Positions 25,929 to 41,475 of a stretch of DNA of 56,526 nt are shown one piece after another. The stretch lies in NCBI GenBank assembly GCA_017470145.1, contig JAFUFB010000014.1, positions 1-56,526 of the forward strand. The letters run 5' to 3'. This DNA is from Clostridia bacterium. GTDB taxonomy: Bacteria > Bacillota > Clostridia > Christensenellales > Aristaeellaceae. The first letter of the stretch is position 1. The number at the start of each line of letters is the position of its first letter. The position numbers and the translations under genes were made by a program. The notes beneath the pieces are model-generated. The model did not search any database, was not told where the DNA came from, and worked only from the letters and a program-made list of their open reading frames with translations.

Positions 25929-25963
25929 CAAAAAACCTGCAGGAGATCCCTGCAGGTTTTTTT
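25929..25963. terminator. Bidirectional intrinsic terminator
   Basis: AACCTGCAGG and CCTGCAGGTT arms with a short loop, A6 on the left and T7 on the right. Serves the isomerase gene on the plus strand and the His-rich gene, whose stop is at 25962, on the minus strand. Confidence 0.8.
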
Positions 25964-26240
25964 ACACATGTTCTGTGGCTTCCTGGCGGGCATGGGGATG
26001 CTCATGACCATGGTGATGACCGTGCTCGTGGCCGTGACCATGTTCCCCATGCTCTCTGTGTCCGTCGTGATCCCCGTGGCTGTGGGCGGCGGAACCGGCG
26101 GCCTCCGCGGGGGAAATCTCATCCGATAGCAGCTTCTGAACCAGTTCCTGACCGCGAGGGCAGCTGGTCTGGTCAATGGGGCAATGGCGTCCGCAGCGAG
26201 GACAGTTGGGAAGCGCTTCTTTGATTTCTGGCATCTGCAT
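25962..26240 (-). CDS. Small zinc-ribbon-like protein with a histidine-rich tail
   Basis: 92 residues. N-terminal part has four Cys in CPRCGRHCPIDQTSCPRG (Cys13, 16, 20, 27), a likely zinc site; the last 42 residues hold 16 His (GHGHEHGHHHGHEH). Tails of this kind store or deliver Ni2+, Zn2+ or Co2+ in chaperones such as HypB, SlyD and UreE, but no such domain is present. AAAGGAG lies 11 bases before ATG 26240. Single gene, facing away from the MATE operon. A metal buffer or chaperone is the best guess. Confidence 0.6.
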   Translation of the reverse strand: MQMPEIKEALPNCPRCGRHCPIDQTSCPRGQELVQKLLSDEISPAEAAGSAAHSHGDHDGHREHGEHGHGHEHGHHHGHEHPHARQEATEHV

Positions 26241-26324
26241 GATGCTTCAGGCTCCTTTCCGTGAATGTTGAGGAAAGGATATCAAAGGGAGCGGGGGAAG
26301 TCAATTCAGAATCAATTGCGATCT

Positions 26325-26389
26325 ATTCCAAAATGGAAAGAATCCTTTTTAAATTGGATTTGATGCGCTGGAAAGGTCCATGCTATAAA
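26325..26389 (+). promoter_or_regulatory. Shared regulatory element plus promoter of the MATE-hydrolase operon
   Basis: 21-base element at 26325-26345 containing ATTCCAAAATGGAAAGAAT (ATTC-N11-GAAT dyad), then 14 bases, then TTGATG (26360-26365), 18 bases, TATAAA (26384-26389). Element and 14-base spacing recur at 31014 and 39284. An upstream GAATCAATTG (26309-26318) is close to the reverse complement of the GAATTGATTC found over the other two -35 boxes. Likely activator-binding site. Confidence 0.6.
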
Positions 26390-26435
26390 GGGGCTGGATA
26401 CCGGATTTGAATGGACGAAAGCAGGAGGAAAACAC

Positions 26436-27812
26436 ATGGCAAGAATGATCAGCGAAGAGAAAAAACAACGAATGCTGACAGAAAAGATGAGCACGCTCAT
26501 TCCGGCAATGGCGGTGCCTACCATCGTAGCGCAGCTCATTACAACGATTTATAACCTGGTGGATACCTATTTTGTAAGCACATTGGGTACCAATGCCACC
26601 GCCGCGGTGGGAGTAAACGCCTCCCTGGAGCGGTTGATTACGCTGATCGGATCCCTGATTGGCGCCGGCGCTTCCAGCTATATTTCCCGGAAGCTGGGCG
26701 CGAAAAAGGATGAGGACGCCCATCGGGTGCTTTCCACTTCCTTCTTTACGGGCGTGGCGCTGGGCTTGGTGCTGCTGGCCGTGGGCAAGATCTGGATTGA
26801 GCCGGTGGTTTATCTGCTGGGCGCGACGAAGGAATGCGCGGAATATTCCATGCAATACGCCAGCTACGTGCTGTACGCGGCTCCCTTTATGGTGGGCAGC
26901 TTTATCCTGAACATGTGTCTGCGCAGCGAAGGCAGCGCCACCTTCTCCATGGTGGGCATTGGCATTGGCGGTGTGCTGAACTGCTTCCTGGATCCCCTGT
27001 TCATTTATACCTTGAACCTGGGGGTGGCTGGCGCGTCCATGGCAACGGCGATTTCCAAGGTGGTCAGCTTCTGCATTCTTCTGTGGCCCTACATCAAGCA
27101 GAAGAGCTCCGTGCGGATTAGCGCGCGGTACATTCGCTTCGTGGGGGAGGATGTGCGCAGCGTGCTGTCCATTGGGTCCACCTCCTTTTTCCGCTCTGCA
27201 GGCGCGGTGGTTTGCTCCACGCTGATTAACCGCATTGGTGGCAGCTATTCCACCTCGGCGTTGGCCGCGCTGTCCATCTCCAACCGGGTGATGGAATTCC
27301 CCTTCGCGATCATCCTGGGCTTTGGGCAGGGCTATCAGCCGGTGGCTGGGTTCAACTGGGGCGCGAAGCAATGGAAACGGGTGAAGGAGAGCCTGGATTT
27401 CTCCCTGCGGGTTTCCGTCATTGGCGGAATTGCGGTAGGCGCTCTGCTGATCGCTTTTGCGGGGCCGGTGGTACGGGTGTTTAACAAGCAGGCGGACGCG
27501 GAGGTGCTGACCATTGGTATGTACTGCATCCGGGTGCAATCGGCCATGCTGTTTGCTCACGCCCTGAACTCCATCATCAATATGTACTACGCAGGTATTG
27601 GCAAGGCGAAATGGGCGCTGCTGATGAGCACCGCCAGACAGGGCTATCTCTTCATCCCCCTGGTGTTCATCCTGCCGCCGCTGTTCGGAACCTATGGCGT
27701 GGCTTCCGTGCAGGCCGCGGCGGACCTGATTTCGCTGGCTATTTCTATTCCCTTAATGCTCAAGGCTTACAAGATGATCCGGGAGGCGGAGGCAGGCCGG
27801 GAAGCGGCCTAA
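26436..27812 (+). CDS. MATE family efflux transporter
   Basis: 458 residues, about 12 membrane helices in two related halves, NorM/DinF type (IPAMAVPTIVAQLITTIYNLVDTYFVSTLG; the second half with FFRSAGAVVCSTLINRIGG). Exports cationic or aromatic compounds using Na+ or H+. AGGAGG lies 7 bases before the start. First gene of an operon with an alpha/beta hydrolase and two PhlG-type hydrolases, so it may remove toxic aromatic substrates or products. Confidence 0.9.
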   Translation: MARMISEEKKQRMLTEKMSTLIPAMAVPTIVAQLITTIYNLVDTYFVSTLGTNATAAVGVNASLERLITLIGSLIGAGASSYISRKLGAKKDEDAHRVLSTSFFTGVALGLVLLAVGKIWIEPVVYLLGATKECAEYSMQYASYVLYAAPFMVGSFILNMCLRSEGSATFSMVGIGIGGVLNCFLDPLFIYTLNLGVAGASMATAISKVVSFCILLWPYIKQKSSVRISARYIRFVGEDVRSVLSIGSTSFFRSAGAVVCSTLINRIGGSYSTSALAALSISNRVMEFPFAIILGFGQGYQPVAGFNWGAKQWKRVKESLDFSLRVSVIGGIAVGALLIAFAGPVVRVFNKQADAEVLTIGMYCIRVQSAMLFAHALNSIINMYYAGIGKAKWALLMSTARQGYLFIPLVFILPPLFGTYGVASVQAAADLISLAISIPLMLKAYKMIREAEAGREAA

Positions 27813-27848
27813 GCAAGGGATCATCATCCGCAGGAAAGGAGGAGAAAG

Positions 27849-29111
27849 ATGGAATATCAGATCAAAACGACCTTCCAGCGCGTGGGACGAAGGGTGCCGG
27901 GGGTGCTGTACGAACCCGAGGGACTGGACCGGGAAAAGCTTCCTACCGTGCTGGTGATGCATTCGGATGAGGACTATCTGGACTGCCCCACGGGGCCGGA
28001 GCTGGCGAAACGGGGATTTCGGGTGCTTTGTGCCAATCCGATGACCAAAGAGGGGATGTTCTTCTCCCTGGCGGAGAAGCTGTCCGCTGTGCAACAGGCG
28101 ATGGACTATCTGCGAAATCTGGATCGGGTGGGCAGCATTTTCCTGCTGGGCCACAGCGGCGGTGCGACGCTGATGACGGCCTACCAGGCGGTGGCGGAGG
28201 AAGGGCCGGAAATCTTCCGGGCGGGGGAGATGGTCTACCCCTATGACGGCCCGGAAAAGCTTCCGCCCGCGGATGGTGTGATTCTGCCGGACGCCAATTG
28301 GGGCAATGCGGTGATGCAGCTTTTCAGCCTGGATCCGGCAGTGGTGGACGAGGACTCTGGCAAAAAGCTGGATCCCTACTATGACCTGTTTGCGCAGGAG
28401 AATGGATTCCGGGAGGAGGGATCCACCTTCTCGGCGGAATTTGTTCATCGCTTTCTGGAACGGCAGGGGGAGCGGAATAACGACATTCTGGAATATGCCC
28501 GGGCCAGGCTCCGAATGATTCAGGAGGGAAAGGGCAGATACAGCGACGACGAGCCGCTGGTGATTCCCGGGGCGAATCAGGGCTTTTTCAATAACAAGCT
28601 TTACGCCCAGGACGTTCGCCTGATGGCACACACCGCAAAGCCTCAGCGGCTGCTGCATCCGGGCGGCAAAGAAACCGTAGAAATCGTGCGTTCTCTGCGG
28701 GAGCCGGAAAATCCGGTGTCCCTGACCCATTCCCTGGTGGAGGGGGGAAGGATAATGACCATTCGGAATTATCTGAGCTCCTACGCGGTGCGCACCCAGG
28801 TGGATTACGGATACGATGAGGAGCGCGTCTGGGGGATTGATTGGCATTCCACCTTCGCCAGCCCGGTGGGCAATGTGGAGCACATCCATGTGCCGATGCT
28901 GCTGATGGGCATGACGGCGGGATGGGAATTCCTGGCGGCGGAGGAGATTGAAAGGCATGCCGCCAGCCAGGACCGAGAGTTGATCTTCATCGAAGGGGCC
29001 ACGCACAAATTTACACCCAAGCGGGTGAATGGCGTTCCTATGAAGGAATATGGAGATACGATCAAGACGATGCATGATTATCTGGCAGGGTGGCTTGCCA
29101 GAAGAAAATAG
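27849..29111 (+). CDS. Alpha/beta hydrolase, likely esterase of the aromatic-degradation operon
   Basis: 420 residues, no signal peptide. Nucleophile elbow GHSGGA with Ser103; a C-terminal GATHKFTPK supplies a candidate catalytic His. The long insert between the nucleophile and the C-terminal strands (about 130-330) is larger than in ordinary esterases. Lies 36 bases after the MATE gene and 12 before the first PhlG-type gene, all with strong ribosome sites. It might cleave an ester or acyl group of a plant aromatic before or after C-C hydrolysis; substrate unproven. Confidence 0.75.
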   Translation: MEYQIKTTFQRVGRRVPGVLYEPEGLDREKLPTVLVMHSDEDYLDCPTGPELAKRGFRVLCANPMTKEGMFFSLAEKLSAVQQAMDYLRNLDRVGSIFLLGHSGGATLMTAYQAVAEEGPEIFRAGEMVYPYDGPEKLPPADGVILPDANWGNAVMQLFSLDPAVVDEDSGKKLDPYYDLFAQENGFREEGSTFSAEFVHRFLERQGERNNDILEYARARLRMIQEGKGRYSDDEPLVIPGANQGFFNNKLYAQDVRLMAHTAKPQRLLHPGGKETVEIVRSLREPENPVSLTHSLVEGGRIMTIRNYLSSYAVRTQVDYGYDEERVWGIDWHSTFASPVGNVEHIHVPMLLMGMTAGWEFLAAEEIERHAASQDRELIFIEGATHKFTPKRVNGVPMKEYGDTIKTMHDYLAGWLARRK

Positions 29112-29123
29112 GAGGAGACACAG

Positions 29124-29984
29124 ATGCAGGAGATGGATGTATATGCTTATCCGCCGGGAAAGCTGACGGAGAACGAGAAGAAGCTGCCTTGCGCCCGATT
29201 CTTTACGGACTATCCGCTGCATAAGCCCAGCCCGATTTATCAGCAGGCCCTGGATCAGGGGCCCATGGACCCGAAGGACGCGATTCCGGCCCAGGAATGG
29301 CTCAGCCTGCTGGATATCGCTGAGAAGGGATATCGGGATGTGATGTACGGCTATTGCATGATGCCGGATGGATCGGCGTTCTACATTGAGTATTCCACTT
29401 CACCGGTGACCTGGCAGGGAAAATGGCGCAGGTGGTACGGAAATTGGTATAACCGCTACTCCAAATCCACGAAACCGGAGGAAGGAAACATCCGGTACAA
29501 AATTTGGAACCCCATTGAGCACTGGGATCATCGTTTCATCAACGGCAAGGATGATTCGGAGGGCGTCTGGTCCCACGAGACGCTGGATGTGGGCAAGACC
29601 GGAGATCCCTCCAAGGGAATTCCGCAGATTTCCTATCGGATGAATCTGCGGGAGTATGGCCTCAGCGAGGAACGGGAGGCGGAACTGGCGGCGAAGGATG
29701 TGCGGGTAGAGGGCTTCTGGGAGGAATTCCCTGGCCATCCGGGGCATCATCTGGTGCTGCGGTTCAGCAGGCCCTGTCCCCTGGGCGGCCGGGAGAGCGT
29801 GAACTGCGAATGGCTGGGCTATTATCCAAAGGATGGTCAGATTCTGCGGGATGAGAGCACGCCCTGCAGCGAGGAGATGGTGAAGAATATTCTGATTCAT
29901 AACACCATTGAACGGCAGCATCTGTACGAGGTGCTTCCGGATTTGTACGAGGCATATAAGGATAAGGACCTGGACGAGGATTGA
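29124..29984 (+). CDS. PhlG/phloretin hydrolase family protein (DAPG hydrolase), copy 1
   Basis: 286 residues. Matches the family of 2,4-diacetylphloroglucinol hydrolase (PhlG) and phloretin hydrolase (Phy of Eubacterium ramulus), zinc enzymes that cut a C-C bond between an acyl group and a phloroglucinol ring. Visible candidate zinc residues: His133/His136 in IEHWDH, Glu152 in SHETLD, and His259/Glu263 in the HxxxE motif (IHNTIERQHLY). RYKIWNP (124-130) and RPCPLGG (216-222) are other shared blocks. Cytoplasmic. Followed by a paralogue; the two share the same blocks but differ in loops and N-termini, so they may act on different substrates or form a heteromer. Confidence 0.8.
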   Translation: MQEMDVYAYPPGKLTENEKKLPCARFFTDYPLHKPSPIYQQALDQGPMDPKDAIPAQEWLSLLDIAEKGYRDVMYGYCMMPDGSAFYIEYSTSPVTWQGKWRRWYGNWYNRYSKSTKPEEGNIRYKIWNPIEHWDHRFINGKDDSEGVWSHETLDVGKTGDPSKGIPQISYRMNLREYGLSEEREAELAAKDVRVEGFWEEFPGHPGHHLVLRFSRPCPLGGRESVNCEWLGYYPKDGQILRDESTPCSEEMVKNILIHNTIERQHLYEVLPDLYEAYKDKDLDED

Positions 29985-30004
29985 CAGAAAGGAGAGGAAA
30001 ACGA

Positions 30005-30883
30005 ATGGCTTTCGGAACGGTAGAGAAGGAGATTTTGCAAACCAACGATCCCAGCGTGGTGAAGATTCGGCAGAAGCTGTACCCTGAAGAAGAGAAGATG
30101 CCCCTGGCGAAGTATTTCTACAATTATCCGCTGCACTATCCCAATCCAGTGGAGATGCAGCTGATTCAAAAGCCCATGGCGGTGGAGGACGCCATTCGGC
30201 CGGAGAATTTTACGGACCTGCTGAAGCCCGTGGGCTACGACAAGGTAGAGCTGGGCTACTGCATGTTTGAGGATGGTTCTGGCTATGTGGCGACCTATCG
30301 GGTACGGCCGCCTCATATCACGGCGGAGATGGAGCGCTGGTATCGGAACTGGCGGAACCTGAAATCCAAGAGCATGGTGGGCGGACATGGTAATCTGCGG
30401 TACAAGATTTGGAATTACGCGGATCATTACGATCACTATTATGTCAACTGGCAGGAGGGCTCCGATGGCATCCACACGACGGAGAGCCTGGACCTGGGCG
30501 CGGGAGAGCGGATGTACGATACCATCCGTCATCAGTTTGACGTGCGGGATTTTGGCGTGACGGAGGAGCAGCTGCAGGCGCTGCAGGAGGCGGGCTGCCA
30601 GTTCAATGGAAAGGGATCCTATGAGACCTTCGACGAGCCGGGCACCCATCTCTGCCTTTCCTACAATCGGCCCTGCCCCCTGGGAGGCATCGAAACCCGC
30701 AGCCGGGAATGGATCGGCTGGCGGCCAGTGAACGGGAAATTGGTTCGGGATCCCGCGACGAAATGTGACGAGGCGTATTTGAAGAAGGTGGTCATTCATA
30801 CCCTGGTGGAATGGGAGCATCTGTATACCTTCCTCCCCGATCTGTACGAGGAATATAAGGATCAACCGCTGGATGCAGATTAG
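30005..30883 (+). CDS. PhlG/phloretin hydrolase family protein (DAPG hydrolase), copy 2
   Basis: 292 residues from ATG 30005 (AAAGGAGAGG upstream); an in-frame start at 29981 overlaps the previous stop but has no ribosome site. Same zinc-site layout as copy 1: His141/His144 in ADHYDH, Glu160 in TTESLD, His265/Glu269 in IHTLVEWEHLY. It also has PPHITAEMERWYRNW, typical of the family. Expected reaction: hydrolysis of an acylphloroglucinol or dihydrochalcone such as phloretin to phloroglucinol plus an acid. Last gene of the operon; its tail and a palindrome are duplicated downstream. Confidence 0.82.
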   Translation: MAFGTVEKEILQTNDPSVVKIRQKLYPEEEKMPLAKYFYNYPLHYPNPVEMQLIQKPMAVEDAIRPENFTDLLKPVGYDKVELGYCMFEDGSGYVATYRVRPPHITAEMERWYRNWRNLKSKSMVGGHGNLRYKIWNYADHYDHYYVNWQEGSDGIHTTESLDLGAGERMYDTIRHQFDVRDFGVTEEQLQALQEAGCQFNGKGSYETFDEPGTHLCLSYNRPCPLGGIETRSREWIGWRPVNGKLVRDPATKCDEAYLKKVVIHTLVEWEHLYTFLPDLYEEYKDQPLDAD

Positions 30884-30995
30884 GTCAAAAATGTTCCCCC
30901 GCTCCGCGGGGGAACAGAGGTGAGGAAAAACAGATCAGCCGCTGGATGCGATTTGGGTTTGAAACGTTCCCCCGCTCCGCGGGGGAACGGAAGTG
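30860..30995 (+). repeat. Two tandem copies of gene tail plus GC palindrome
   Basis: Units start at 30860 and 30933 (period 73). Each begins with the end of the second PhlG-type gene (GATCARCCGCTGGATGC) and contains a palindrome with core CCCCCGCTCCGCGGGGG flanked by GTT and AAC, then GGTGAGGAA or AAGTGAGGAA. Same organisation as the repeat at 25669-25890 downstream of an unrelated gene. Probably also acts as a transcription or mRNA end. Confidence 0.8.
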
Positions 30996-31013
30996 AGGAA
31001 GGAAATTGGACTG

Positions 31014-31077
31014 ATTCCAAAACGGAAAGAATCCCCGGATAAAAGGAATTGATTCAATATTTTCAACGCGATAAGAT
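31014..31077 (+). promoter_or_regulatory. Shared regulatory element plus promoter of the ABC importer operon
   Basis: Element at 31014-31034 (ATTCCAAAACGGAAAGAAT plus CC), 20 of 21 bases identical to that at 26325. Then 14 bases, TTGATT (31049-31054), 17 bases, TAAGAT (31072-31077). GAATTGATTC at 31046-31055 overlaps the -35. The element would be centred near -60, a usual position for LysR recognition sites. Confidence 0.65.
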
Positions 31078-31188
31078 GTCCATGAAAGAAGGGGGACGCC
31101 CCGAAGGATGGACAGAACTACACACCGACTTTGTAAGCTTTCGGAGAAGAAGGCTTTCAAAAAAATATTGATGAAGGAGAGAAAACCC

Positions 31189-32778
31189 ATGAAAACCAGA
31201 AAACTGTTGGCAATGCTGTTGGCCCTGATGCTGACGATCGGCTGCTTGAGCCTGAGCGCGGTGGCCGAGACCTCCTACCAGGCCGAATCCGTCGTGATCG
31301 CGGCGGACGACGATTCCTTCAACGTGGCTCCCTGGAGCAACTCCCAGGGTGAAGTATCCATGTATCTGCAGAACATCATCTGGACCCATCTGGCTACCCG
31401 GCCTTACACCGGCGCCATGATCGGCGCGGGGATGGAGCTGGCGGCGGCGAAGGAGATCACCAAGGTGGACGACACCACCTGGCATATCGTGCTGAACGAT
31501 ATTACGGACTCCAAGGGCAACAAGATTACCGCCAATGACGTAAAATTCAGCTTCGACAAGAACTACGAGCTGGGCTATTACGCCTATGTGAATAACTACT
31601 ATGACACCATCGAAGTGATCAGCGACAACGAGCTGAACTTCAAAACCAAGACGGGGGACGAAGGCGGCTTTGAGTCCGCTGTGATTAACACCGCCATCTG
31701 CAGCCAGGCCTGGTATGAATCCGCCAGCGAGGATGAGGTGCTGAATGATCCCGCTACTACCGGCGCCTATTATGTGACCAATGTGCAGAATGGCCATTCT
31801 GTGACCCTGCAGGCGCGGGAAGACTATTGGAAGACTGAGGAGCTTAGCACCACGGAAAAGCAGAATGTGAAAACCATTCAGATTCTGTGCATGAGCGAGG
31901 ATGACGCCCGCTCCATCGCCCTGGAAAACGGGGAAGTGGATTACGCGCAGGTCAGCTACATCGCCTATGACCGCATCTTCCGGAATGACCCCAATTATGA
32001 AATCTATCAGATCCCGAAGTTTATGAACGCGATCCTGATCTTCAACTGCGATCCCAGCTCTGTGGCCGCCGACCCCAACGTCCGCAAGGCCGTATCCTAC
32101 GCGCTGGATATTGACCAGGTATTCCTGCTGGGTCAGGGCAATGATTCCTATCAGCTGCATCATGACATCTGCCCGGATGTGACGCCCGACTATGTGAAGG
32201 CCTGGAACGACGAAGACTATTATACCCGGGATCTGGCGAAATCCGCGGAGTATCTGGAAGCCGCCGGATACAAGGCCGGTGAGCTGACCCTGCGGTTCAT
32301 CGTCCGGGCCCAGGCGCCGCAGCAGCCCTACGTGGTGATGCAGCAGCAGTTGGCGGAAGCCGGAATCAACATGGAAATCGTCGCCTATGACCGGGCCGTG
32401 TTCAACACCTACTACGCAGACAACACCGCCTGGGATTTCGCGGAGAGCGGATCGGAAGTAACGGACTTCACCGCCAATTTCTGGAGCCGGATGTTCAGCG
32501 AGGAAGTCTACGGTGAGAAGGGTTCCGAGAACAACATTCATGATGAGAAGCTGCAGGAGCTGCTGAAGGCCGCCGTTGCCACCCGCTCCGAAGCGGACAT
32601 GGACGCCTTCCATCAGTACTACACCTACGAGCAGTGCTACGCCGTCGGTATGTACAATGAAGTGAACTACTTCGTCGCCCGCAAGGGAATCACGGATATC
32701 GCCCTGGGGACGGACAACGCCACCCTGCAGGCCATGACCTTTACCAGCGACTACAGCCCTGTGCCGCTGCAGAAGTAA
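31189..32778 (+). CDS. ABC transporter substrate-binding protein, family 5 (dipeptide/oligopeptide type)
   Basis: 529 residues with an N-terminal signal peptide (MKTRKLLAMLLALMLTIGCL...AVA); no clear lipobox. Family-5 SBP features: WTHLATRPYTG, WHIVLNDITDSKGNKITANDVKFSFDKN (about 100-128), ALENGEVDYAQV, NPDV-equivalent DPNVRKAVSYALDID. Family-5 proteins bind peptides but also glycosides, nickel and other ligands. ATG 31189 with AAGGAGAG upstream; the longer frame from 31108 lacks a site. Heads an operon with dppBCDF-like genes. Co-regulation with the PhlG operon hints at a plant aromatic or its conjugate as ligand. Confidence 0.85.
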   Translation: MKTRKLLAMLLALMLTIGCLSLSAVAETSYQAESVVIAADDDSFNVAPWSNSQGEVSMYLQNIIWTHLATRPYTGAMIGAGMELAAAKEITKVDDTTWHIVLNDITDSKGNKITANDVKFSFDKNYELGYYAYVNNYYDTIEVISDNELNFKTKTGDEGGFESAVINTAICSQAWYESASEDEVLNDPATTGAYYVTNVQNGHSVTLQAREDYWKTEELSTTEKQNVKTIQILCMSEDDARSIALENGEVDYAQVSYIAYDRIFRNDPNYEIYQIPKFMNAILIFNCDPSSVAADPNVRKAVSYALDIDQVFLLGQGNDSYQLHHDICPDVTPDYVKAWNDEDYYTRDLAKSAEYLEAAGYKAGELTLRFIVRAQAPQQPYVVMQQQLAEAGINMEIVAYDRAVFNTYYADNTAWDFAESGSEVTDFTANFWSRMFSEEVYGEKGSENNIHDEKLQELLKAAVATRSEADMDAFHQYYTYEQCYAVGMYNEVNYFVARKGITDIALGTDNATLQAMTFTSDYSPVPLQK

Positions 32779-32789
32779 GCAATCCACAG

Positions 32790-32819
32790 ACTGCTGCCGC
32801 GAGAAACCGCGGCAGCAGT
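32790..32819 (+). terminator. Intercistronic hairpin after the SBP gene
   Basis: 12-bp perfect stem (CTGCTGCCGCG and its complement, closed by an A-T pair), 6-base loop, followed by TTGTTT. Such partial terminators commonly keep SBP mRNA higher than that of permease genes. Confidence 0.65.
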
Positions 32820-32857
32820 TTGTTTCCAGAAACCGTTCGCAGAAAGGATAACAAACG

Positions 32858-33868
32858 ATGGGACGATATGTTCTGAAACGTCTGCTGATCCTCATTCCGA
32901 CGCTCATCGCCGTGACCATCATCGTGTTTACCCTGATGAACTTCGTTCCGGGGGATCCGGTCATGATTGCGCTGGGCTCCGGCACCCATACGCCGGCGGA
33001 GGTGGAGGCCAAGCGGATCGCCATGGGACTGGACCGGCCCTTCCTGGTCCGGCTGGGAGAATATCTGAAAGGCGTGTTCTTCCATTTTGACTTCGGCACC
33101 AGCCTGATCGACGGTACAAGCATCCAGTATCAGCTGGTAACCCGTTTCCCCAATACGCTGAAGATAGCCATTTATAGCATCATTTTCACGGTGGTGATCG
33201 GGATCCCGCTGGGCGTCTTCTGCGCCCAGCACGCCAACTCCGTGGGAGACCGGATCGCTCTGATCATGACCCTGGTGCTGGACTCCATGCCCAGCTTCTG
33301 GCTGGCGCTGCTGCTGATGCTGCTCTTCGCGCTCCAGCTGCACTGGCTGCCATCCACGGGCAGCGGATCCTTCAAGTACTTTATCCTGCCCACCCTGGCC
33401 AACTCCCTGGGCGGCCTGGCGGGATTCACCAGGCAGGTCCGGGCCAGTATGCTGGAGGTCACCAGGTCTGACTTTGTGACCACGGCCCGGTCCAAGGGCA
33501 TCAGCGAGCGGAAGGTGGTCTACGGACACGCCCTGCCCAACGCCCTGATTCCGATCCTGACGCTGGTGGGCATGCGCTTCGGCGGCATGCTGGGCGGCGC
33601 GACGGTGATCGAGGTGATCTTCTCCATCCCCGGCATCGGCCAGCTGCTGGTGAACGGCATCAACAACCGGGATTCCACCGTGGTCACGGGAGGCATCGTG
33701 TTCATCGCGCTGACCTTTTCGCTGATCATGCTGCTGACGGACCTGGCCTACGCGCTGGTGGACCCGCGGATCAAGGCCCAGTATGCGACCCAGAAGAAAA
33801 AATCCGGAGAGGAGGAGAAGCGTCACCATGGCGGGCATCACCATGGAAAGCGCGCTGAAGAAGCATGA
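32858..33868 (+). CDS. ABC transporter permease, DppB/OppB type
   Basis: 336 residues, six membrane helices. Typical N-terminus MGRYVLKRLLILIPTLIAVTIIVF, conserved MNFVPGDP, and the EAA loop VTTARSKGISERKVVYGHALPNALIP. Forms the membrane channel with the next gene's product. Unusual His- and Lys-rich C-terminal tail ([16 protein letters not shown]) not typical of the family. Stop overlaps the next start (ATGA). Confidence 0.9.
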   Translation: MGRYVLKRLLILIPTLIAVTIIVFTLMNFVPGDPVMIALGSGTHTPAEVEAKRIAMGLDRPFLVRLGEYLKGVFFHFDFGTSLIDGTSIQYQLVTRFPNTLKIAIYSIIFTVVIGIPLGVFCAQHANSVGDRIALIMTLVLDSMPSFWLALLLMLLFALQLHWLPSTGSGSFKYFILPTLANSLGGLAGFTRQVRASMLEVTRSDFVTTARSKGISERKVVYGHALPNALIPILTLVGMRFGGMLGGATVIEVIFSIPGIGQLLVNGINNRDSTVVTGGIVFIALTFSLIMLLTDLAYALVDPRIKAQYATQKKKSGEEEKRHHGGHHHGKRAEEA

Positions 33869-34743
33869 GCAAGAAAAACGCAACGGAAATCAACAGCCTG
33901 AAGCCGGGTTCTCTGAAATATGTCTGGCGGAAGCTGCTGAAGAATAAGTCCGCCGTCTTCGGGCTGACGGTGGTGGCGCTGCTGATCATCCTTTCCCTGC
34001 TGTCCCCGCTGATCTGCCGGTACGATTACCGCAGCATGGACGCGCTGAACGCTTACAGCGGCCCCAGCAGCGAACACCTGCTGGGCTGCGATGAGCTGGG
34101 CAGAGACATTCTTTCCCGGGTGCTGTACGGAGCGCGCTATACCTTCATCATCGGCATCCTTTCCACCGCCATCGCCGCGGTGCTGGGCATCGCGATGGGC
34201 GCCGTCGCCGGATACTTCGGCGGCAAGGTGGACAGCATCCTGATGCGGTTCCTGGATATCTTCCAGTCCTTCCCGATGCTGATCCTGGCCATGGCCTTCT
34301 GCGCCGTGTTCGGGACAGGCATTGACAAGTGCATCCTGGCCCTGGGTATCTCCAATATCTCCGGCTTTGCCCGGCTGATGCGGGCGAATATCCTGCGGAT
34401 CCGGAACATGGAGTACGTGGAGGCGGCGACTTCCATCGGCTGCCCCACCCGGAAGATTATCACCGGGCATGTGATTCCCAACGCGATCTCGCCCATCATC
34501 GTGGAGATCGCCATGGGCATCAGCCGGAACGGCCTGGCGTCCTCCTCCTTGAGCTTTCTGGGACTGGGCGTGCAGCAGCCGACGCCGGAATGGGGCGCCA
34601 TGCTGTCCTCCGCCCGCAGCTACATCCGGTATTATCCGCATATGGCTATTATTCCCGGAATTTTCATCCTCATCACCGTGCTCAGCTTTAACCTGATCGG
34701 CGACGCGGTGCGGGATATCCTGGATCCGACGCTGAAAGAGTGA
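33865..34743 (+). CDS. ABC transporter permease, DppC/OppC type
   Basis: 292 residues, six membrane helices; N-terminal OppC segment ([25 protein letters not shown]), [20 protein letters not shown] block and EAA loop [26 protein letters not shown]. Partner of the DppB-type subunit; genes overlap by 4 bases. The ATPase gene follows 10 bases later. Confidence 0.9.
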
Positions 34744-34753
34744 GGGAATCGAC

Positions 34754-35749
34754 ATGAGCGAAAATACAAAGAACAGCGAATTCTTTTCCATCCGGGATCT
34801 GAATGTGCAGTATAAGTCCGGCGACCAGACGGTTTATGCCGTGAACGGCGTCTCCTTTGACCTTGCCCCCGGAGAGACCCTGGGCCTGGTGGGGGAGACC
34901 GGCGCGGGCAAAACCACCATCGCCAAGTCCATCCTGCGCATCTTGCCCGAGCACGCGGTGAAAAAGATGGAGGGCGAGGTGCTGTACGAGGGCCAGGATA
35001 TCTTCCGGATGAACGATACCGAGCTGCGGAAGATCCGGGGCCATCAGATCTCCATGATCTTTCAGGATCCCATGACCGCGCTGAACCCTGTCAAGCGCGT
35101 GAATGAGCAGATCGCGGAAGGCTACATCCAGCACCATCACTGCACCAAGGCGGAAGCGGAGCAGCGGGCGGAGGAGATGCTGGAGCTGGTGGGCATCAGC
35201 AAGGACCGGGCGGGGGAGTATCCCCATCAGTTTTCCGGCGGCATGAAGCAGCGCGTGGTCATCGCCATGGCGCTGGCCTGTTCCCCCCGGCTGCTGATCG
35301 CGGATGAACCCACGACCGCGCTGGATGTGACCATTCAGGCCCAGGTGCTGGACCTGATCAAGCGCCTGCGGGACGAGCTGGGTACCTCCATGATCCTGAT
35401 TACCCACGATCTGGGCGTCGTCGCCGGCATCTGCGACCAGGTGGCGGTGATCTATGCCGGGCGGATCATTGAAAAGGGATCGAAGGCGGAAGTCTTCCGC
35501 CATCCGACCCATCCCTACACGATCGGGCTCTTCGGCGCGCTGCCGGACCTGAAAAAGGACGTGGAGCGGCTGAGCCCCATCGAAGGGCTGCCGCCGGATC
35601 CCACCGTGAAGACGGAGGGCTGCGCCTTCTATCCCCGGTGCGCAAGGCGCTGCGAAAAGTGCAAAACCTATGCCTATGAACCGACGAATCTGACAGATAC
35701 CCATATGATTCTCTGCTGCAATCCGGCGGGAGAGGAGGAAGCGAAATGA
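34754..35749 (+). CDS. ABC transporter ATP-binding protein, DppD/OppD type
   Basis: 331 residues. Walker [10 protein letters not shown] (about 52-60), signature FSGGMKQRV, Walker [13 protein letters not shown], and the OppD/F C-terminal Cys cluster ([14 protein letters not shown]) that can hold a 4Fe-4S cluster. Energises import with the DppF-type ATPase, whose start overlaps the stop. Confidence 0.9.
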
Positions 35750-36702
35750 GCAATCTGCTGGAGATTGAACATCTGAAGAAATACTTCAAAAGCGCCAGGG
35801 GCACGGTGCATGCGGTGGACGACGTCAACCTGACTATCGAGGAAGGGAAAACCGTCGGCCTTGTGGGCGAATCCGGATGCGGAAAATCCACCCTGGGCCG
35901 GACCATTGTCCATCTGCAGGAATCCACGGACGGCGTGATCCGCTTCGCGGGAAAGGACGTCACCCATCTGGACAAAAAGCAGATGCTGGAATTCCGGAAA
36001 AACGCGCAGATCATCTTCCAGGATCCCTATTCCTCCCTGGATCCCCGCCAGACCGTGCAGGACATCATTCAGGAGCCCCTGCGCCTGCTGACCGACATGG
36101 GAAAGGCGGAGATCGAAAAGAAGAGCGAGGAGCTGATGGACCTGGTGGGCATCGAGAAGCGGCTCCGCATGTCCTATCCCCATGAGCTGGACGGCGGACG
36201 CCGCCAGCGGGTGGGCATCGCCCGGGCGCTGGCGCTGAACCCGAAGTTCATCGTCTGCGACGAGCCGGTTTCCTCGCTGGACGTATCCATCCAGGCGCAG
36301 ATCCTGAACCTGCTGATGGACCTGCAGGATCAGCTGGGGCTGACGTATCTCTTCATTACCCATGACATGTCCGTGGTGCGGCACATCTCGGATTACATCT
36401 GCGTCATGTACCTGGGCCAGATGATCGAGAAGACGGATAAAAAGTCCCTCTTTGACAAGCCGCTGCATCCCTATACAAAGGCGCTGCTTTCCGCCATTCC
36501 GACCGTGGATATCGACGCGCAGCCGGAGCGGATTCAGCTGAAGGGGGAGATCAATTCTCCCATCGATCCCAAGCCGGGATGCCGCTTTGCCAAGCGCTGT
36601 CCCTACGCGCAGCACTGCTGCCATGAACCCGTGCCGCTGACGGAGGTCGAGCCCGGCCACTTCGTAGCCTGCCATCGGGTGAAAGAGATCAACCAGCTAT
36701 GA
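35746..36702 (+). CDS. ABC transporter ATP-binding protein, DppF/OppF type
   Basis: 318 residues. Walker [10 protein letters not shown], Walker [14 protein letters not shown]-terminal Cys cluster ([14 protein letters not shown]). The signature motif reads LDGGRRQRV where LSGGxxQR is usual, so the conserved Ser is Asp; the paired DppD-type ATPase keeps a standard motif, so one of the two ATP sites may be degenerate. Overlaps both neighbours by 4 bases. Confidence 0.88.
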
Positions 36703-37343
36703 GCAGGAAATCATGGGACAGCTTCGAAAAGCTGTATGCCAGGGTGGAAACCACCGATCCCCGCACCGGGAAGAAAAACGTCCGGTATGAATATCAGGGA
36801 TCATGGCATGTGCTGGCCAGTGGGGAAAAGACCCTGCGCCTGACCAAATGGATCTGCGGCGCGGCGCTGGCGGCGGACGCGCTGTGCCTCGGATGGGCGG
36901 GAACCCGGACCTCGGCGTTTAACCTGCTGGGCTGGACCTCCCTGCCCGTGGGGCTTGCGCTGGCCGCCTGGGTCTTTATTACCTGCGGCGTATTTCCCCT
37001 GCTGTTTTCCGGGAAAAAGTGGAAAAGCCCGGACCATGACAGGGCGAGCCTGTTCCTGCGGACTGCGACCCTGGCGGAGGCGGGGCTGATGGCCTTCGTA
37101 TTTCTGTACGGCATGGGATGGAAATGGCTGGGAGGCCACCCGGAGGAAAGCGCGCTGCCGCTGGTGGGATACCTGGGCGCGGGACTCTGCGCAATGATGA
37201 TCCGCCAGAGCTTCGGGAAGCTGGAATACCGGGTGGAGAAGCAGGACAGCGGGAGGACCGGCGCAGCCGGCACAGCAGATACAGCCACCCCGGAGAAGCC
37301 CGATCCCATGGCGATCTTTCGGCGGGAAGAGAAAGGAGAGTAA
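36699..37343 (+). CDS. Uncharacterised four-helix membrane protein in the importer operon
   Basis: 214 residues. Polar N-terminus (about 1-48), four hydrophobic segments (about 49-65, 73-104, 119-140, 150-165) and a charged C-terminus. No family recognised. The start overlaps dppF by 4 bases and the SDR gene starts 6 bases after its stop, so it is translated as part of the operon. An accessory to the transporter or a membrane anchor for the next protein are both possible. Confidence 0.6.
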   Translation: MSRKSWDSFEKLYARVETTDPRTGKKNVRYEYQGSWHVLASGEKTLRLTKWICGAALAADALCLGWAGTRTSAFNLLGWTSLPVGLALAAWVFITCGVFPLLFSGKKWKSPDHDRASLFLRTATLAEAGLMAFVFLYGMGWKWLGGHPEESALPLVGYLGAGLCAMMIRQSFGKLEYRVEKQDSGRTGAAGTADTATPEKPDPMAIFRREEKGE

Positions 37344-37349
37344 ACTGCA

Positions 37350-38156
37350 ATGATGTCCCTGAAAGGAAAAACCATGATTATCTCCGGAGCGTCGGGAGAC
37401 CGGCCGGATCCGACCGTGAATATGGCGCTGGAATGTGGAGCGAACGTCTGCTTCCTCAGCGGCAACCATGAGCGGGTGATTCAGGCGATGAAATATATCG
37501 ATCCGAAGTATAAGGACCATATTATCGGATTCGCCCAGAATCCTCAGTTCAAGCTGGAGCTGAACATGCGCCTGGCGCCGGAAATTTATAAAGAGGATTC
37601 CACCTCCCAGGACGTCCTGAAATGGATCTACGATTATTTCGGAAGCATTGATATCATGGTCCACGCTTCCGGCGGCGGGTTCTCCCGGTATACCATGGAG
37701 AACACAGAAAAGGACTACTGGCACCGGACAGCCACGATATCGGAAAACCTGTTCTTCAACACCATGTATGCCCTGCCCTATCTGGAAAAGAGCAAGAGCC
37801 CGGTGGTGATCAATGTGGTTTCGGACGATGGGTATCACGGCGGCTATTTTAACAATCCGGCCTGTGCCGCGGCCCGGGGCAGCGTGTTGACCCTGACCAA
37901 GGAAATGGCAAAGGAGCTGGCGCCCAAGGGCATTCGGGTGAACTGCGTCATGCATAGCTATATCGATGGGGATGGACCGGACGCCACCGCCATTTGGCTG
38001 ACGGAGGAGGAGCGGGAAAAAATCGTTTCCGCTACGCCCCTGCGCCGGCTGTGTACCCGGGAGGACATTGCTGGAATCATCAATTTCCTGGCCAGCGATG
38101 AAGCGTCCTTCATCACTGGGGCTGTGGTGCCGGTGAACGGGGGATTGACACTATAA
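37350..38156 (+). CDS. Short-chain dehydrogenase/reductase family protein lacking catalytic Tyr and Lys
   Basis: 268 residues with SDR fold features: first strand MIISGAS, HASGGG in the NNAG position (105-110), VVINVVSDDG with Ser158, IRVNCV (195-200) and the C-terminal FITGAVVPVNGG. The usual YxxxK reads C172-A-A-A-R176, so Tyr is Cys and Lys is Arg; the cofactor loop reads SGASGDRPDP instead of TGxxxGIG. It may be a non-redox SDR relative, a binding protein, or use other chemistry. Last gene of the importer operon, followed by a terminator. AAAGGAG precedes ATG 37350; 37353 is also possible. Confidence 0.75.
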   Translation: MMSLKGKTMIISGASGDRPDPTVNMALECGANVCFLSGNHERVIQAMKYIDPKYKDHIIGFAQNPQFKLELNMRLAPEIYKEDSTSQDVLKWIYDYFGSIDIMVHASGGGFSRYTMENTEKDYWHRTATISENLFFNTMYALPYLEKSKSPVVINVVSDDGYHGGYFNNPACAAARGSVLTLTKEMAKELAPKGIRVNCVMHSYIDGDGPDATAIWLTEEEREKIVSATPLRRLCTREDIAGIINFLASDEASFITGAVVPVNGGLTL

Positions 38157-38173
38157 GCCATCGGACGGAGATG

Positions 38174-38210
38174 AAAAGGGCCCGCATCGCGTTGGCGGCG
38201 GGCCTTTTCT
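38174..38210 (+). terminator. Intrinsic terminator of the importer operon
   Basis: AAAAGG(G)CCCGC pairs with GCGGGCCTTTT around a 9-12 base loop, ending in TTTTCT; 17 bases after the SDR stop codon. Confidence 0.75.
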
Positions 38211-38215
38211 CCCGC

Positions 38216-38244
38216 TTGCGGGGAAAGGAATCCTTTGATATACT
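38216..38244 (+). promoter_or_regulatory. Possible promoter of the LysR gene with a related half-element
   Basis: TTGCGG (38216-38221), 17 bases, TATACT (38239-38244). Inside the spacer GGAAAGGAATCC (38222-38233) is one base longer than the right half of the shared element, which would suit autorepression. Confidence 0.4.
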
Positions 38245-38336
38245 GACCTTGTGTAAAGCGGATGAATATTTTGGCCCTGCTGGAGGGAGACATATACCTT
38301 TCGAAACGACAGAGACGGAACAAAGGGGATGGCGAT

Positions 38337-39230
38337 ATGGAAATCTCAGTGCTGAGCGAGTTTGTGGAGCTGGCGAAATCCTGCAATTTTCAGATCACGG
38401 CGGATGATATGGCCCTGACGCAGTCCACCCTTTCCAAGCATATTCACAAGCTGGAGGAGGAATTGGGCGTCTCTCTGTTCGACCGAACCACCCGCAGCGT
38501 TACGCTGAATGCCTATGGAGAGCAGTATTTGATCTACGCCCGACAGATCTGCGAGATTCATGAGCAGAGCCTGGCCACGCTGGACAGCATGAAGCGCGGA
38601 AAAAAATATATCGTCAATATCGGCTTTATGGATAAGCACGGCATGTACGGGATTGTGGAAGCCATTTCTCAATTCAGCCGGCTGCATCCGGAAATCAAGG
38701 TGAATATCATCGAGCGGGAGGGCCATGATCTGAAGGGGATGCTGGATGCAGGCAAGGCGGACGTCATCTTTTACGCGGAAAAGGTGAACCCCAGGGAATA
38801 TCATGTGGCCCGCTTTACCACGGACCGATTGGTAGCAGTGGTGCCCAGCGGTCATGCCCTGGCGGAAATGGACGCCACGACGCTGCAGGAGCTGGCGAAG
38901 GAATCGTTGATTGAGCATAAGACCGTTCTGGAGATGCGGTTGATGGCGGAGGCCTGCAAAGAGGAAAAGGTATCCCTGGATTATGTAACCAGCATTTATC
39001 ATGCGTCCACCATCATGAAGATGATTCGAGAGGGAATTGGGGTCAGCATCATGAGCAGGGGCTGCGCCATGGAAAATGCCAGCGCGGATATGGTGGTTGT
39101 GCCCATCGTACCCAGCATTACCTTTGATATCAATGCGTTGAGCAATCGCGGCCAGAGCATGTCGTCCTCCGCGGATGTGTTTATTCGCTACATTCGGGAC
39201 TACTATGGGAAGGAAGTTCATTCGAAGTAG
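38337..39230 (+). CDS. LysR-family transcriptional regulator
   Basis: 297 residues from ATG 38337 (AAAGGGG upstream); a longer frame from 38262 is not needed, because the winged HTH starts right at MEISVLSEFVELAKSCNFQI and continues TLSKHIHKLEEELGVSLFDR (typical LTTR DNA-binding domain). The C-terminal two-lobed effector domain (about 90-290) would bind a small inducer. LysR regulators usually activate neighbouring catabolic genes. It lies between the importer operon and a secreted-protein gene, both preceded by the shared dyad, and is the best candidate regulator of the three-promoter set. Confidence 0.88.
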   Translation: MEISVLSEFVELAKSCNFQITADDMALTQSTLSKHIHKLEEELGVSLFDRTTRSVTLNAYGEQYLIYARQICEIHEQSLATLDSMKRGKKYIVNIGFMDKHGMYGIVEAISQFSRLHPEIKVNIIEREGHDLKGMLDAGKADVIFYAEKVNPREYHVARFTTDRLVAVVPSGHALAEMDATTLQELAKESLIEHKTVLEMRLMAEACKEEKVSLDYVTSIYHASTIMKMIREGIGVSIMSRGCAMENASADMVVVPIVPSITFDINALSNRGQSMSSSADVFIRYIRDYYGKEVHSK

Positions 39231-39259
39231 CGGGGCGGGACACAGAAGCGGATGGGAGG

Positions 39260-39282
39260 AAGCGGCGGGAGGCCGCTTTTTT
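39260..39282 (+). terminator. Intrinsic terminator of the LysR gene
   Basis: AAGCGGC (39260-39266), 5-base loop, GCCGCTT (39272-39278) and T4; ends just before the shared regulatory element. Confidence 0.75.
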
Positions 39283-39283
39283 C

Positions 39284-39348
39284 ATTCGAATTTGGAAAGA
39301 AAGGAGCAAAAAGAAGAATTGATTCTCGGGAAGATCATCCGCTAAAAT
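39284..39348 (+). promoter_or_regulatory. Third copy of the shared regulatory element plus promoter
   Basis: Element 39284-39304 (ATTCGAATTTGGAAAGAA...), 15 of 21 bases as at 26325. Then 14 bases, TTGATT (39319-39324), 18 bases, TAAAAT (39343-39348). GAATTGATTC at 39316-39325 overlaps the -35, exactly as at 31046. Confidence 0.55.
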
Positions 39349-39381: not shown

Positions 39382-41475
39382 ATGAAGAAATGGTTTCTGG
39401 TACTTGCCATCGCGCTGGCCCTGATGCTGGCTTCTGGTGCGCTGGCGGATGTGACGGCCGTGCTCGCTGACGCGGGCCAGGCGGAGGAAGGCTTTGTGGC
39501 CATTGTGTCCTCGGAAGGGAAGGTATACAGCCAATTGGCGGTGGAAAGCTTCGCCAGTCTTATTCGGGAGAATGAGCTGGCGGAGGATGAAAGCATTGCC
39601 AAGGTCGCTGTGGTTCCCGCGGGAGAGCAGGAATATCCTTATCTGTATCCAGAAAATGAATGGCAGATTCGCGTCTATGAGGACGCCCTGCCAGCCTGGT
39701 ATACAGAAGAAACGGAAAGCGCGATTCTGGCGGCTTTCGAAGGGTGGAAGACACAGGCTTATTCAATCTTCGATCCCACGGTCATTCTGTCGCTGGTCAA
39801 TCCTCAGACGATTGAGGTAAGCGAGGCGGATGTTACGGAGGATATTCAGGCGGCGCTGGACAAATGGGCAGATGTGGACAGCAACTGGATGGTCTGCTAT
39901 GTGCGCAACGCAGTGCCTACCACGACCCAGGGCGCGGTGGGGAAATCCATCGCCAATGACGCCTGGAACTATGTAGTGAACATGGTTTGGACCCAGACAG
40001 GCGAGGATCTGGCGGGCCATTCCCAGGTGGACCTGATCGCTTCCTATATCGGCAGCGCGTTCCCGGGCATCAGCACCTGGGAAGGATATTTCGGCGCGGA
40101 GACCGGCTATCCCTTTGCTTCGGGCGCTAAGCTATTGGCTGCCGGCTTCCTGTACAATCATGGACTGGTGTCCGCAAAGCAGGTCAAGGAATTCGATGAA
40201 AAATATGATCCGGAGCAGTACAAGGATCTGACGGTGCTGGCCACGCCGCAGGAGAGCGACACTGGCAGCGCGTTCGCGGTGCTGGTGGACGAGGAAGGAA
40301 ATACTTACTGGTCCCTGGGGACGGATTATGTCAGCGGCCTGTACACGGAATTCAATCTGGATCCGACGAAGGTGGTAGCGCTGAATGTGGGCCCGAAGAA
40401 CGAAAGGCAAAACATCTCCGCAGGAACAACCTATACCGCGGAGGGCTGGATTGATCTGGGGAATGGATATTTTGCTACGGGCGCCTGGGAAACCCCTGAA
40501 GCTGAGAAGCCTGATTTCTTCCAAGCGGACGGTACTGCCAATTGGAAAATGAACGAGGATGGTTCCGTTGAACCAGCCGGCGAGGATATGACGGCGCCTG
40601 GCGCGACGGTTAATCCTGGAAAGTATACCTATGCTCAGGAGGATGGCACCAACTGGGAGCTGATGCTCTCCGGAAACGGATCCTGCCGCTTGACTGTGAG
40701 CACGGCAGCGGAGCGGGAGGAAGCTGCCGCCAAGCAGGCGGAACAGGCAGCCGCGCCGAGAACAACCTATTTCAACGTGATGCCGCCCATGACCGAGGTG
40801 AAGTCAATTGGCCCGGTGCCGGCCTGGTATGACGAGAAGAAGGAAGCCACGGATGAAGCCGCTAAGGTAGCCTTTGCGGATTGGCAAAAGCAGATTGTGG
40901 AATTGGTGGATGTGGACGCCCTCAATGGAACCATGAAGGGCCTGAGCCTGGATTTCGCCACGGAACTCAGCGATGAAGTGATGGCCAATTTCAAGGAATG
41001 GGTTCGGATCTGGAACGAGGATGCTGTGGCGGGCAGTATCAATATCAGCATCAGCACGCTGGGATACAAGGCGGTTGGACCGAGCGTGTGGAATGTGATG
41101 GATGACACTGTGCTGGCCAATTATAAGAGCATGGATCATGAGGGGTGCCCTGGCCCCACGACTAGCCCCTCTATCGCGGCTTACGCGCTGGCTACCTATG
41201 GGAAGGTGATTGACGCCGCTACGGATGATTATATGGGATCTACCATGAACGACGTGTATTCTGCTCATGTGGGAAGCTTCATTCGCGGATTGCTGGAGGA
41301 TGAAAACGGAGAGTATGTGTACGCCGTGGCCAACCGACTGTGGGAAGATGGAACGATTCCGTTCTTCGACGGCGAATATTGGTACCTGGTAAGCGGCCCG
41401 GACTTTAACCCGGACGGCAATCCGGCGGTAGAGGTCATCTATTCTGCCACACCGGCAGAATTGCTGGCGGAGTAA
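39382..41475 (+). CDS. Large secreted protein with an internal duplication, function unknown
   Basis: 697 residues with a signal peptide (MKKWFLVLAIALALMLASGALA). Two related blocks are visible: about 105-290, starting ALPAWYTEETESAILAAFEG, and about 475-680, starting PVPAWYDEKKEATDEAAKVA; each goes on with a DVD...NW or IWNED segment, a TTQGAVG or GPSVW part, and a YxGS/HVGS stretch. Between them lies a beta-rich part (GKYTYAQEDGTNWELMLSG). No sortase motif or TM anchor. No family recognised. Its promoter carries the shared element, so it should be induced with the PhlG operon; binding of an extracellular substrate is a guess. Confidence 0.65.
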   Translation: MKKWFLVLAIALALMLASGALADVTAVLADAGQAEEGFVAIVSSEGKVYSQLAVESFASLIRENELAEDESIAKVAVVPAGEQEYPYLYPENEWQIRVYEDALPAWYTEETESAILAAFEGWKTQAYSIFDPTVILSLVNPQTIEVSEADVTEDIQAALDKWADVDSNWMVCYVRNAVPTTTQGAVGKSIANDAWNYVVNMVWTQTGEDLAGHSQVDLIASYIGSAFPGISTWEGYFGAETGYPFASGAKLLAAGFLYNHGLVSAKQVKEFDEKYDPEQYKDLTVLATPQESDTGSAFAVLVDEEGNTYWSLGTDYVSGLYTEFNLDPTKVVALNVGPKNERQNISAGTTYTAEGWIDLGNGYFATGAWETPEAEKPDFFQADGTANWKMNEDGSVEPAGEDMTAPGATVNPGKYTYAQEDGTNWELMLSGNGSCRLTVSTAAEREEAAAKQAEQAAAPRTTYFNVMPPMTEVKSIGPVPAWYDEKKEATDEAAKVAFADWQKQIVELVDVDALNGTMKGLSLDFATELSDEVMANFKEWVRIWNEDAVAGSINISISTLGYKAVGPSVWNVMDDTVLANYKSMDHEGCPGPTTSPSIAAYALATYGKVIDAATDDYMGSTMNDVYSAHVGSFIRGLLEDENGEYVYAVANRLWEDGTIPFFDGEYWYLVSGPDFNPDGNPAVEVIYSATPAELLAE

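Follow-up and report, generated by a model that had tools for sequence, protein, structure and literature searches.

In the 56,526-nt stretch analyzed here (the window), three, and probably four, promoters share a composite operator and very likely form a single LysR-type regulon, activated from two sites with a probable plant-phenolic co-inducer. The promoters belong to a gene cluster around two genes of the PhlG (DAPG_hydrolase) family, PhlG1 and PhlG2. An earlier note on this DNA had proposed that the LysR-type protein encoded at 38337-39230 jointly controls a MATE/hydrolase/PhlG operon, an importer operon and the gene of a secreted protein (SEC). The comparisons below favor this grouping, but they displace the proposed dyad register and add a probable fourth promoter, that of a small His/Cys-rich protein. 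The boxes and promoters, with the basis of each assignment, are:

26326-26338, plus strand: LysR box 1, TTCCAAAATGGAA (T-N11-A), upstream of the MATE operon; sequence, matrix rank 3
26357-26389, plus strand: MATE promoter, GATTTGATG (-35 at 26360-26365) and -10 TATAAA (26384-26389); sequence and alignment
31015-31027, plus strand: LysR box 2, TTCCAAAACGGAA, upstream of the importer operon; matrix rank 1
31046-31077, plus strand: importer promoter, GAATTGATTC (-35 at 31049-31054) and -10 TAAGAT (31072-31077); sequence and alignment
39285-39297, plus strand: LysR box 3, TTCGAATTTGGAA, upstream of the secreted-protein gene; matrix rank 2
39316-39348, plus strand: SEC promoter, GAATTGATTC (-35 at 39319-39324) and -10 TAAAAT (39343-39348); sequence and promoter scan
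26276-26304, minus strand: probable divergent promoter of the His/Cys-rich gene, TTGACT-17-TATCCT; promoter scan and box geometry

We aligned 17 promoters from the window genome (2.45 Mb, ~84% complete) and seven related genomes, designated here by G numbers; two rows were moved by one base for the column information. The conserved composite reads TTCC-N5-GGAA, followed after 21 bp by TTGAT as the -35, with GA(A/T) just before TTGAT. The box-to-TTGAT spacing is 21 bp in 15 of the 17 promoters, 20 bp in one and 22 bp in one. Mean information is 1.71 and 1.79 bits in the two half-sites, 1.56 bits in GA(A/T) and 1.81 bits in TTGAT; outside these elements it is 0.08 bits in the upstream flank and 0.06 bits in the spacer. 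All three window sites contain TTC-N7-GAA, which is the T-N11-A form of LysR sites, and the aligned sites of relatives have TTC-N7-GAA with GGAA in 13 of 14 cases (the binding-protein site of G303 ends AGAA). The half-site of box 3 reads TTCG where the others have TTCC.

The 21-mers described in the earlier note are located as claimed at 26325-26345, 31014-31034 and 39284-39304, the first two agreeing at 20 of 21 bases and the third being looser, and 14 bp separate the end of each from TTGAT. The ATTC-N11-GAAT dyad read from them, however, is particular to the first two copies and does not hold for the third site or for relatives; the conserved dyad is TTCC-N5-GGAA. We also rejected the full 21-mer as the conserved unit, as other genera keep just the core and the spacing. 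When 20 positions of the 21-mer were searched in the 308 genomes of the family, the set used for all family-wide searches, exact matches were confined to the window genome and G042, which is nearly identical to it; 14 others have matches with one or two mismatches. As to the suggested sites near -65 and -35, the distance from the box to the -35 element is nearly fixed, and with the start predicted from the -10 boxes the box would lie near -64. GAATTGATTC over the -35 is of weight only at its fixed distance from the box and is not significant alone: in the window it occurs twice exactly and seven times at up to one mismatch, against 6.0 expected, and we discarded it as a stand-alone regulon marker. 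GA(A/T) sits outside the -35 hexamer, at whose fifth base 16 of 17 rows have T in place of the consensus C, G296 having A; the block therefore appears to be a second LysR contact, more than a -35 box.

The composite is rare in the window and in its genome. A degenerate pattern fitted to the three 21-mers gave exactly three matches in the window at up to three mismatches, the reported sites (shuffle mean 0.06), and in the whole genome three places at 0 mismatches and five more, every one at three; exact matching at the fitted sites follows by construction, and the informative result is that all other places carry at least three mismatches. TTC-N7-GAA-N21-TTGAT has five occurrences in the window, where 300 shuffles gave 0.05 on average and never more than 2; two of the five (7367 and 12369) are inside open reading frames (ORFs), and the stricter TTC-N6-GGAA-N18-GAWTTGAT matches at 26326, 31015 and 39285 only. 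We then built a weight matrix on six genomes that exclude the window's and G042; it used 12 of their sites and omitted the two spaced 20 or 22 bp. As judged by this matrix, 31015, 39285 and 26326 rank first, second and third of the 112,964 window positions covered, with scores of 45.0, 41.8 and 28.6; fourth comes box 1 read on the opposite strand (16.2), and fifth 7367, within an ORF (13.1). Across the window genome the composite is exact at 26326 and 31015, has one mismatch at 39285 and at box 1 on the opposite strand, and has two mismatches at nine places. An element scattered over many unrelated promoters, which would have spoken against the regulon, was thus not found, since no further place in the genome is nearer the composite than two mismatches.

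The composite is also retained in the cluster promoters of other genera, core and spacing alike; a lack of conservation in relatives, which would likewise have spoken against the regulon, is thus not seen either. At 0 mismatches it occurs at 18 places in the 308 genomes, 13 of which are promoters of the cluster, in seven genomes; the other five are one within the OppF gene of G240 and four in G201, G064, G338 and G340. The pattern was drawn from most of the 13 exact cluster sites, but not from the two in G289, and these led to a cluster copy unknown beforehand, missed by the PhlG2 search because its contig carries no PhlG. For G303, a one-mismatch match pointed to the part of the cluster with LysR and the binding protein, which had been missing. 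The composite lies upstream of MATE in G240, G074, G303 and G296; upstream of the binding-protein gene in G240, G074, G303, G289 and G324; upstream of SEC in G240, G074 and G289; and between LysR and PhlG in G240 and G227. G042 has the same three sites as the window. In the upstream regions read, the composite is absent before SEC in G303 and G296, before MATE in G324, and on the G226 contig.

Box 1 probably serves a fourth promoter jointly with that of MATE. On the minus strand, again 21 bp separate the box from GAATTGAC (TTGAC), directed toward the His/Cys-rich gene, which is transcribed away from MATE and is a cluster member overlooked in the earlier note. This divergent geometry is present in G042 but absent in G240, so that the fourth promoter is likely yet less certain.

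As for the protein that reads the boxes, the LysR of the window is the most likely candidate. Its domains match HTH_1 (2.1e-16) and LysR_substrate (7e-32) in Pfam. The genome holds two LysR proteins at E 1e-5 or better, of which only this one has K34 in its recognition helix; since the other has a different helix (SQPSLTSAV), the window LysR is the likely reader. We sought the box up to 420 bp upstream of 25 LysR genes (24 and one from G033), and found it at seven (G240, G289, G074, G303, G227, G324 and G178 C20). Six of the eight other cluster genomes with a LysR gene have a full box ~100-165 bp upstream of it (G240, G074, G289, G303, G324 and G227); in G042 and the decayed cluster of G357, LysR has no upstream box. 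At the G303 LysR, the nearest box lacks TTGAT at the spacing, and the composite lies further up, closer to the binding-protein gene. For the window, G042 and G357, the box is beside the neighboring secreted-protein gene, and the remaining 15 of the 25 LysR genes are without a box. Position 34 is K in 10 of 10 box-linked LysRs and R in 15 of 15 others, H35 being common to both groups. The composite site, its conservation, the near-fixed spacing, and the link to the cluster and to box-linked LysR genes therefore support a single regulon well.

A LysR 98% identical to that of the window is present in a roe deer omasum metagenome genome. In G178 C20 (L109:2077-5259), a TTCC-N5-GGAA box lies between a K34 LysR gene and a UbiD/UbiX-type (Flavoprotein) decarboxylase pair, hinting at a wider phenolic-sensing subfamily. 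Related LysR genes with R34 adjoin similar importers, without a box, at L062 (G052), L140 (G178 C113) and L114 (G033).

Several observations weigh against this assignment of reader and boxes. The window LysR is 31-35% identical to the other cluster LysRs over the whole protein, and is thus no plain orthologue of them. Its gene has no box upstream of itself, unlike those of six relatives. LysR genes commonly, though not obligatorily, share a divergent promoter with a target; this arrangement occurs in the same number of relatives and not in the window, where LysR lies between two same-strand targets. On the tree, the K34/R34 labels need two changes, one of them forced, so that K34 is a subfamily mark and does not reflect many independent events. 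A further LysR could be missing from a genome of this completeness. A simple promoter scan of the window gave 6 promoter-like sites versus 7.0 in shuffles, listing the SEC promoter and missing those of MATE and the importer. Finally, with one mismatch allowed the composite is non-specific, matching in 97 of the 308 genomes (5 hits in the backward-read control column), and was abandoned as too loose for genome-wide detection; in six contigs hand-picked from the one-mismatch list (G289:C217, G303:C113, G178:C20, G226:C108, G226:C174 and G310:C24), LysR is beside the box in three, and G226:C108 has a LysR-like stretch ~6 kb from the match.

From the sequence features, we infer binding by the window LysR, an arrangement of two dimers, activation rather than repression, and a phenolic inducer. 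One LysR dimer would bind TTCC-N5-GGAA, whose center lies ~63-64 bp before the start that the -10 boxes predict, and the second dimer of the same tetramer would contact GA(A/T)TTGATT, ~30 bp downstream and overlapping the -35. The co-inducer, which is probably one of the plant phenolics that the cluster processes, would shift the -35 contact so that RNA polymerase fires; one signal would then turn on the secreted protein together with import, hydrolysis inside the cell by the alpha/beta and PhlG-family enzymes, and export through MATE.

It is unlikely that LysR mainly represses, its -35 contact blocking polymerase until the inducer comes. The second element does sit right on the -35 in 17 of 17 promoters, but an upstream LysR box, here near -64, together with a -35 element is the usual activator geometry, and activated promoters likewise have features seen here: a -35 (TTGAT) that deviates from TTGACA and, in several cases, a weak -10 hexamer. 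Slightly less probable again is the explanation that the sites are real and co-regulated but bound by another regulator, the window LysR controlling something else. The low whole-protein identity, the window LysR's own boxless promoter and the incomplete genome would fit this explanation; however, the genome has one other LysR, with a different helix (families besides LysR were not searched), and the helix-turn-helix (HTH) of the window LysR keeps K34 and 53-65% identity to six cluster LysRs of other genera (65% to G240). Furthermore, the T-N11-A form and position suit LysR, and box 3 is directly downstream of the LysR gene. That the similarity reflects recent promoter duplication within the cluster, or chance, without shared regulation is highly improbable: boxes 1 and 2 are nearly identical, but flanks and spacers differ between the sites, TTC-N7-GAA-N21-TTGAT far exceeds its shuffle count, and diverged promoters of other genera share the core and its spacing, with flanks that hold almost no information.

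The genes of the cluster are:

25962-26240, minus strand: small His/Cys-rich protein, CPxCxxHCP...CxRG and His-rich tail; motif relatives in clusters
26436-27812, plus strand: MATE-family efflux protein; Pfam MatE 6.1e-48
27849-29111, plus strand: alpha/beta-hydrolase-like protein, GHSGG motif; weak Pfam matches, alignment
29124-29984, plus strand: PhlG1, DAPG_hydrolase family; PF18089 1.4e-9, over cut-off
29981-30883, plus strand: PhlG2, DAPG_hydrolase family; PF18089 3e-22, over cut-off
31189-32778, plus strand: solute-binding protein (SBP), SBP_bac_5; Pfam 4.3e-46
32858-36702, plus strand: oligopeptide-type ATP-binding cassette importer, two permeases and two ATPases; Pfam BPD_transp_1, OppC_N, ABC_tran, oligo_HPY
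36699-37343, plus strand: membrane-like protein (DUF); without Pfam match, 42% match in G240
37350-38156, plus strand: short-chain dehydrogenase/reductase (SDR); Pfam adh_short_C2 1.4e-32
38337-39230, plus strand: LysR-type regulator, K34 in recognition helix; Pfam HTH_1, LysR_substrate
39382-41475, plus strand: secreted protein SEC, 697 aa; signal-peptide-like N-terminus by eye

PhlG1 and PhlG2 score 38.3 and 79.7 bits, respectively, with PF18089 (cut-off 22.7). A profile of 12 PhlG1/PhlG2 relatives matches, over nearly the full length, the phloretin hydrolase structures 5xe5 and 5xey of Mycobacterium abscessus and PhlG (3hwp), with values of 1.9e-12, 2.3e-12 and 1.5e-9. With the PhlG equivalog NF047887, in contrast, PhlG2 reaches 35 bits against a cut-off of 600, and PhlG1 gives no match at E 0.01. 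The zinc ligands of PhlG and phloretin hydrolase are two His and two Glu; one His and a C-terminal HxxxE are invariant in the 12 relatives and align with 5xe5, which gives candidates for three of the four. PhlG1 and PhlG2 are distant relatives of phloretin hydrolase and PhlG, so that phloretin is no more than a candidate substrate, and phloretin or a phloroglucinol no more than a candidate inducer. This rare cluster of gut bacteria probably takes up plant phenolics and degrades them.

In the alpha/beta-hydrolase-like family, all five members have weak Pfam matches, the window copy being below cut-off throughout, and the family profile found just a weak dienelactone hydrolase match in the PDB (E 0.099). 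The His/Cys-rich protein has no match in Pfam or NCBIfam. Its motif relatives occur in 6 of 11 loci scanned (L052, L054, L055, L056, L057 and L061), belonging to the clusters of G042, G240, G074, G303, G296 and G324, which makes seven copies counting the window; none are present in the examined stretches of G227, G289 and G357. SEC likewise has no match in Pfam or NCBIfam; its relatives in cluster genomes of other genera are ~67-81% identical over matched pieces. In 200 genomes sampled, SEC matches occur in five (its own, G074, G240, a fragment in G357 and a weak match in G366), so that, the weak G366 match aside, SEC was seen with the cluster only. AlphaFold models of PhlG2 and SEC had mean pLDDT (predicted local distance difference test) values of 38 and 35 and were not used. 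Before the importer promoter, at 30865-30990, we noted by eye that the PhlG2 3' end is imperfectly repeated in tandem, with a GTTCCCCCGCTCCGCGGGGGAAC hairpin after each copy.

PhlG2 relatives at E 1e-40 or better occur in 9 of the 308 family genomes, that of the window included, and other genera of the family carry much of the gene set in shuffled order. On the G226 contig, which is short, only PhlG and a weak MATE match are present. Across the order, PF18089 was found in 3 of 396 genomes: that of the window, G631 and G399. In the stretches around the G631 and G399 PhlG genes, neither the composite nor a LysR relative (E 1e-3) is present; a lone TTCC-N5-GGAA lies at the G631 PhlG gene, without TTGAT at the spacing. 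The cluster of G357 (L139:9142-10962) is decayed, with PhlG1 and SEC fragments, an intact-looking LysR (64% identical to that of G240), and remaining boxes.

The most unusual feature is that the same operator is retained with a changed sensor. We compared the window with G240, the closest cluster of another genus, by the identities of the best matching pieces. These are high for MATE (88%), PhlG2 (87%), SBP (88%), permease B (95%), permease C (99%, 206 aa), OppD (91%), OppF (93%) and SDR (91%), followed by SEC (77%) and the hydrolase (67%), whereas they are lower for PhlG1 (63%), the His/Cys-rich protein (49%), DUF (42%) and LysR (35%). Within the other genera, G240 PhlG1 is 88-89% identical to PhlG1 of G074, G303 and G296, and G240 LysR is 71-74% identical to LysR of G074, G303 and G289; in G240, PhlG1 and LysR share one divergent box. 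This identity pattern suggests that the operator was kept while the sensing half of LysR, and less so some other genes, diverged or was replaced on one side. The cluster may, as a tentative and rather doubtful reading of these sequences, be a re-tunable module, in which operator and LysR helix stay fixed and the sensing domain and PhlG1 are exchanged between lineages to give a new inducer and substrate. DUF and the His/Cys-rich protein have diverged too, which weighs against exchange of the sensor, and fast divergence in place is a possible alternative.

Among known systems, the closest in mechanism are BenM and CbnR. PMC12609908 describes a LysR tetramer model with a recognition site and an activation site, and a contact of BenM/CbnR residue 30 with the T of T-N11-A. 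The cluster resembles these systems in its T-N11-A palindrome, second element at the -35, HTH_1 and LysR_substrate domains, and regulator gene near its targets; it differs in its TTCC-N5-GGAA box, its K34 helix residue and its target set, and in that no target gene has a divergent promoter in common with the window LysR. In Pseudomonas, the TetR repressors PhlH and PhlF act on phlG and phlACBD, PhlH being the one that controls phlG (PMC8003664); the system is similar in placing a PhlG-family C-C hydrolase gene under a local regulator. However, the Pseudomonas regulators are TetR repressors and that of the window a LysR protein, and organism, cluster and operator differ. A study of the Clostridium scatologenes phloroglucinol pathway, whose key genes encode a cyclohydrolase and a lyase, places DAPG_hydrolase/phloretin hydrolase beside the pathway in some bacteria (PMC10470551). 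That phloroglucinol-degradation cluster shares an anaerobic Clostridia host with the window, but the main text of the study does not mention LysR (PMC10470551). In literature titles, abstract openings and passages we found no description of LysR control of a PhlG-type gene, which is no proof of absence.

The analysis provides a precise operator code for an uncharacterized gut/rumen cluster with phloretin-hydrolase relatives, and defines a set of genes that probably act together, proteins without family assignment among them. The code may be of use in inducer discovery and in building phenolic biosensors. The cluster also offers a natural case of a single conserved operator that is apparently recognized by regulators whose sensing halves differ.

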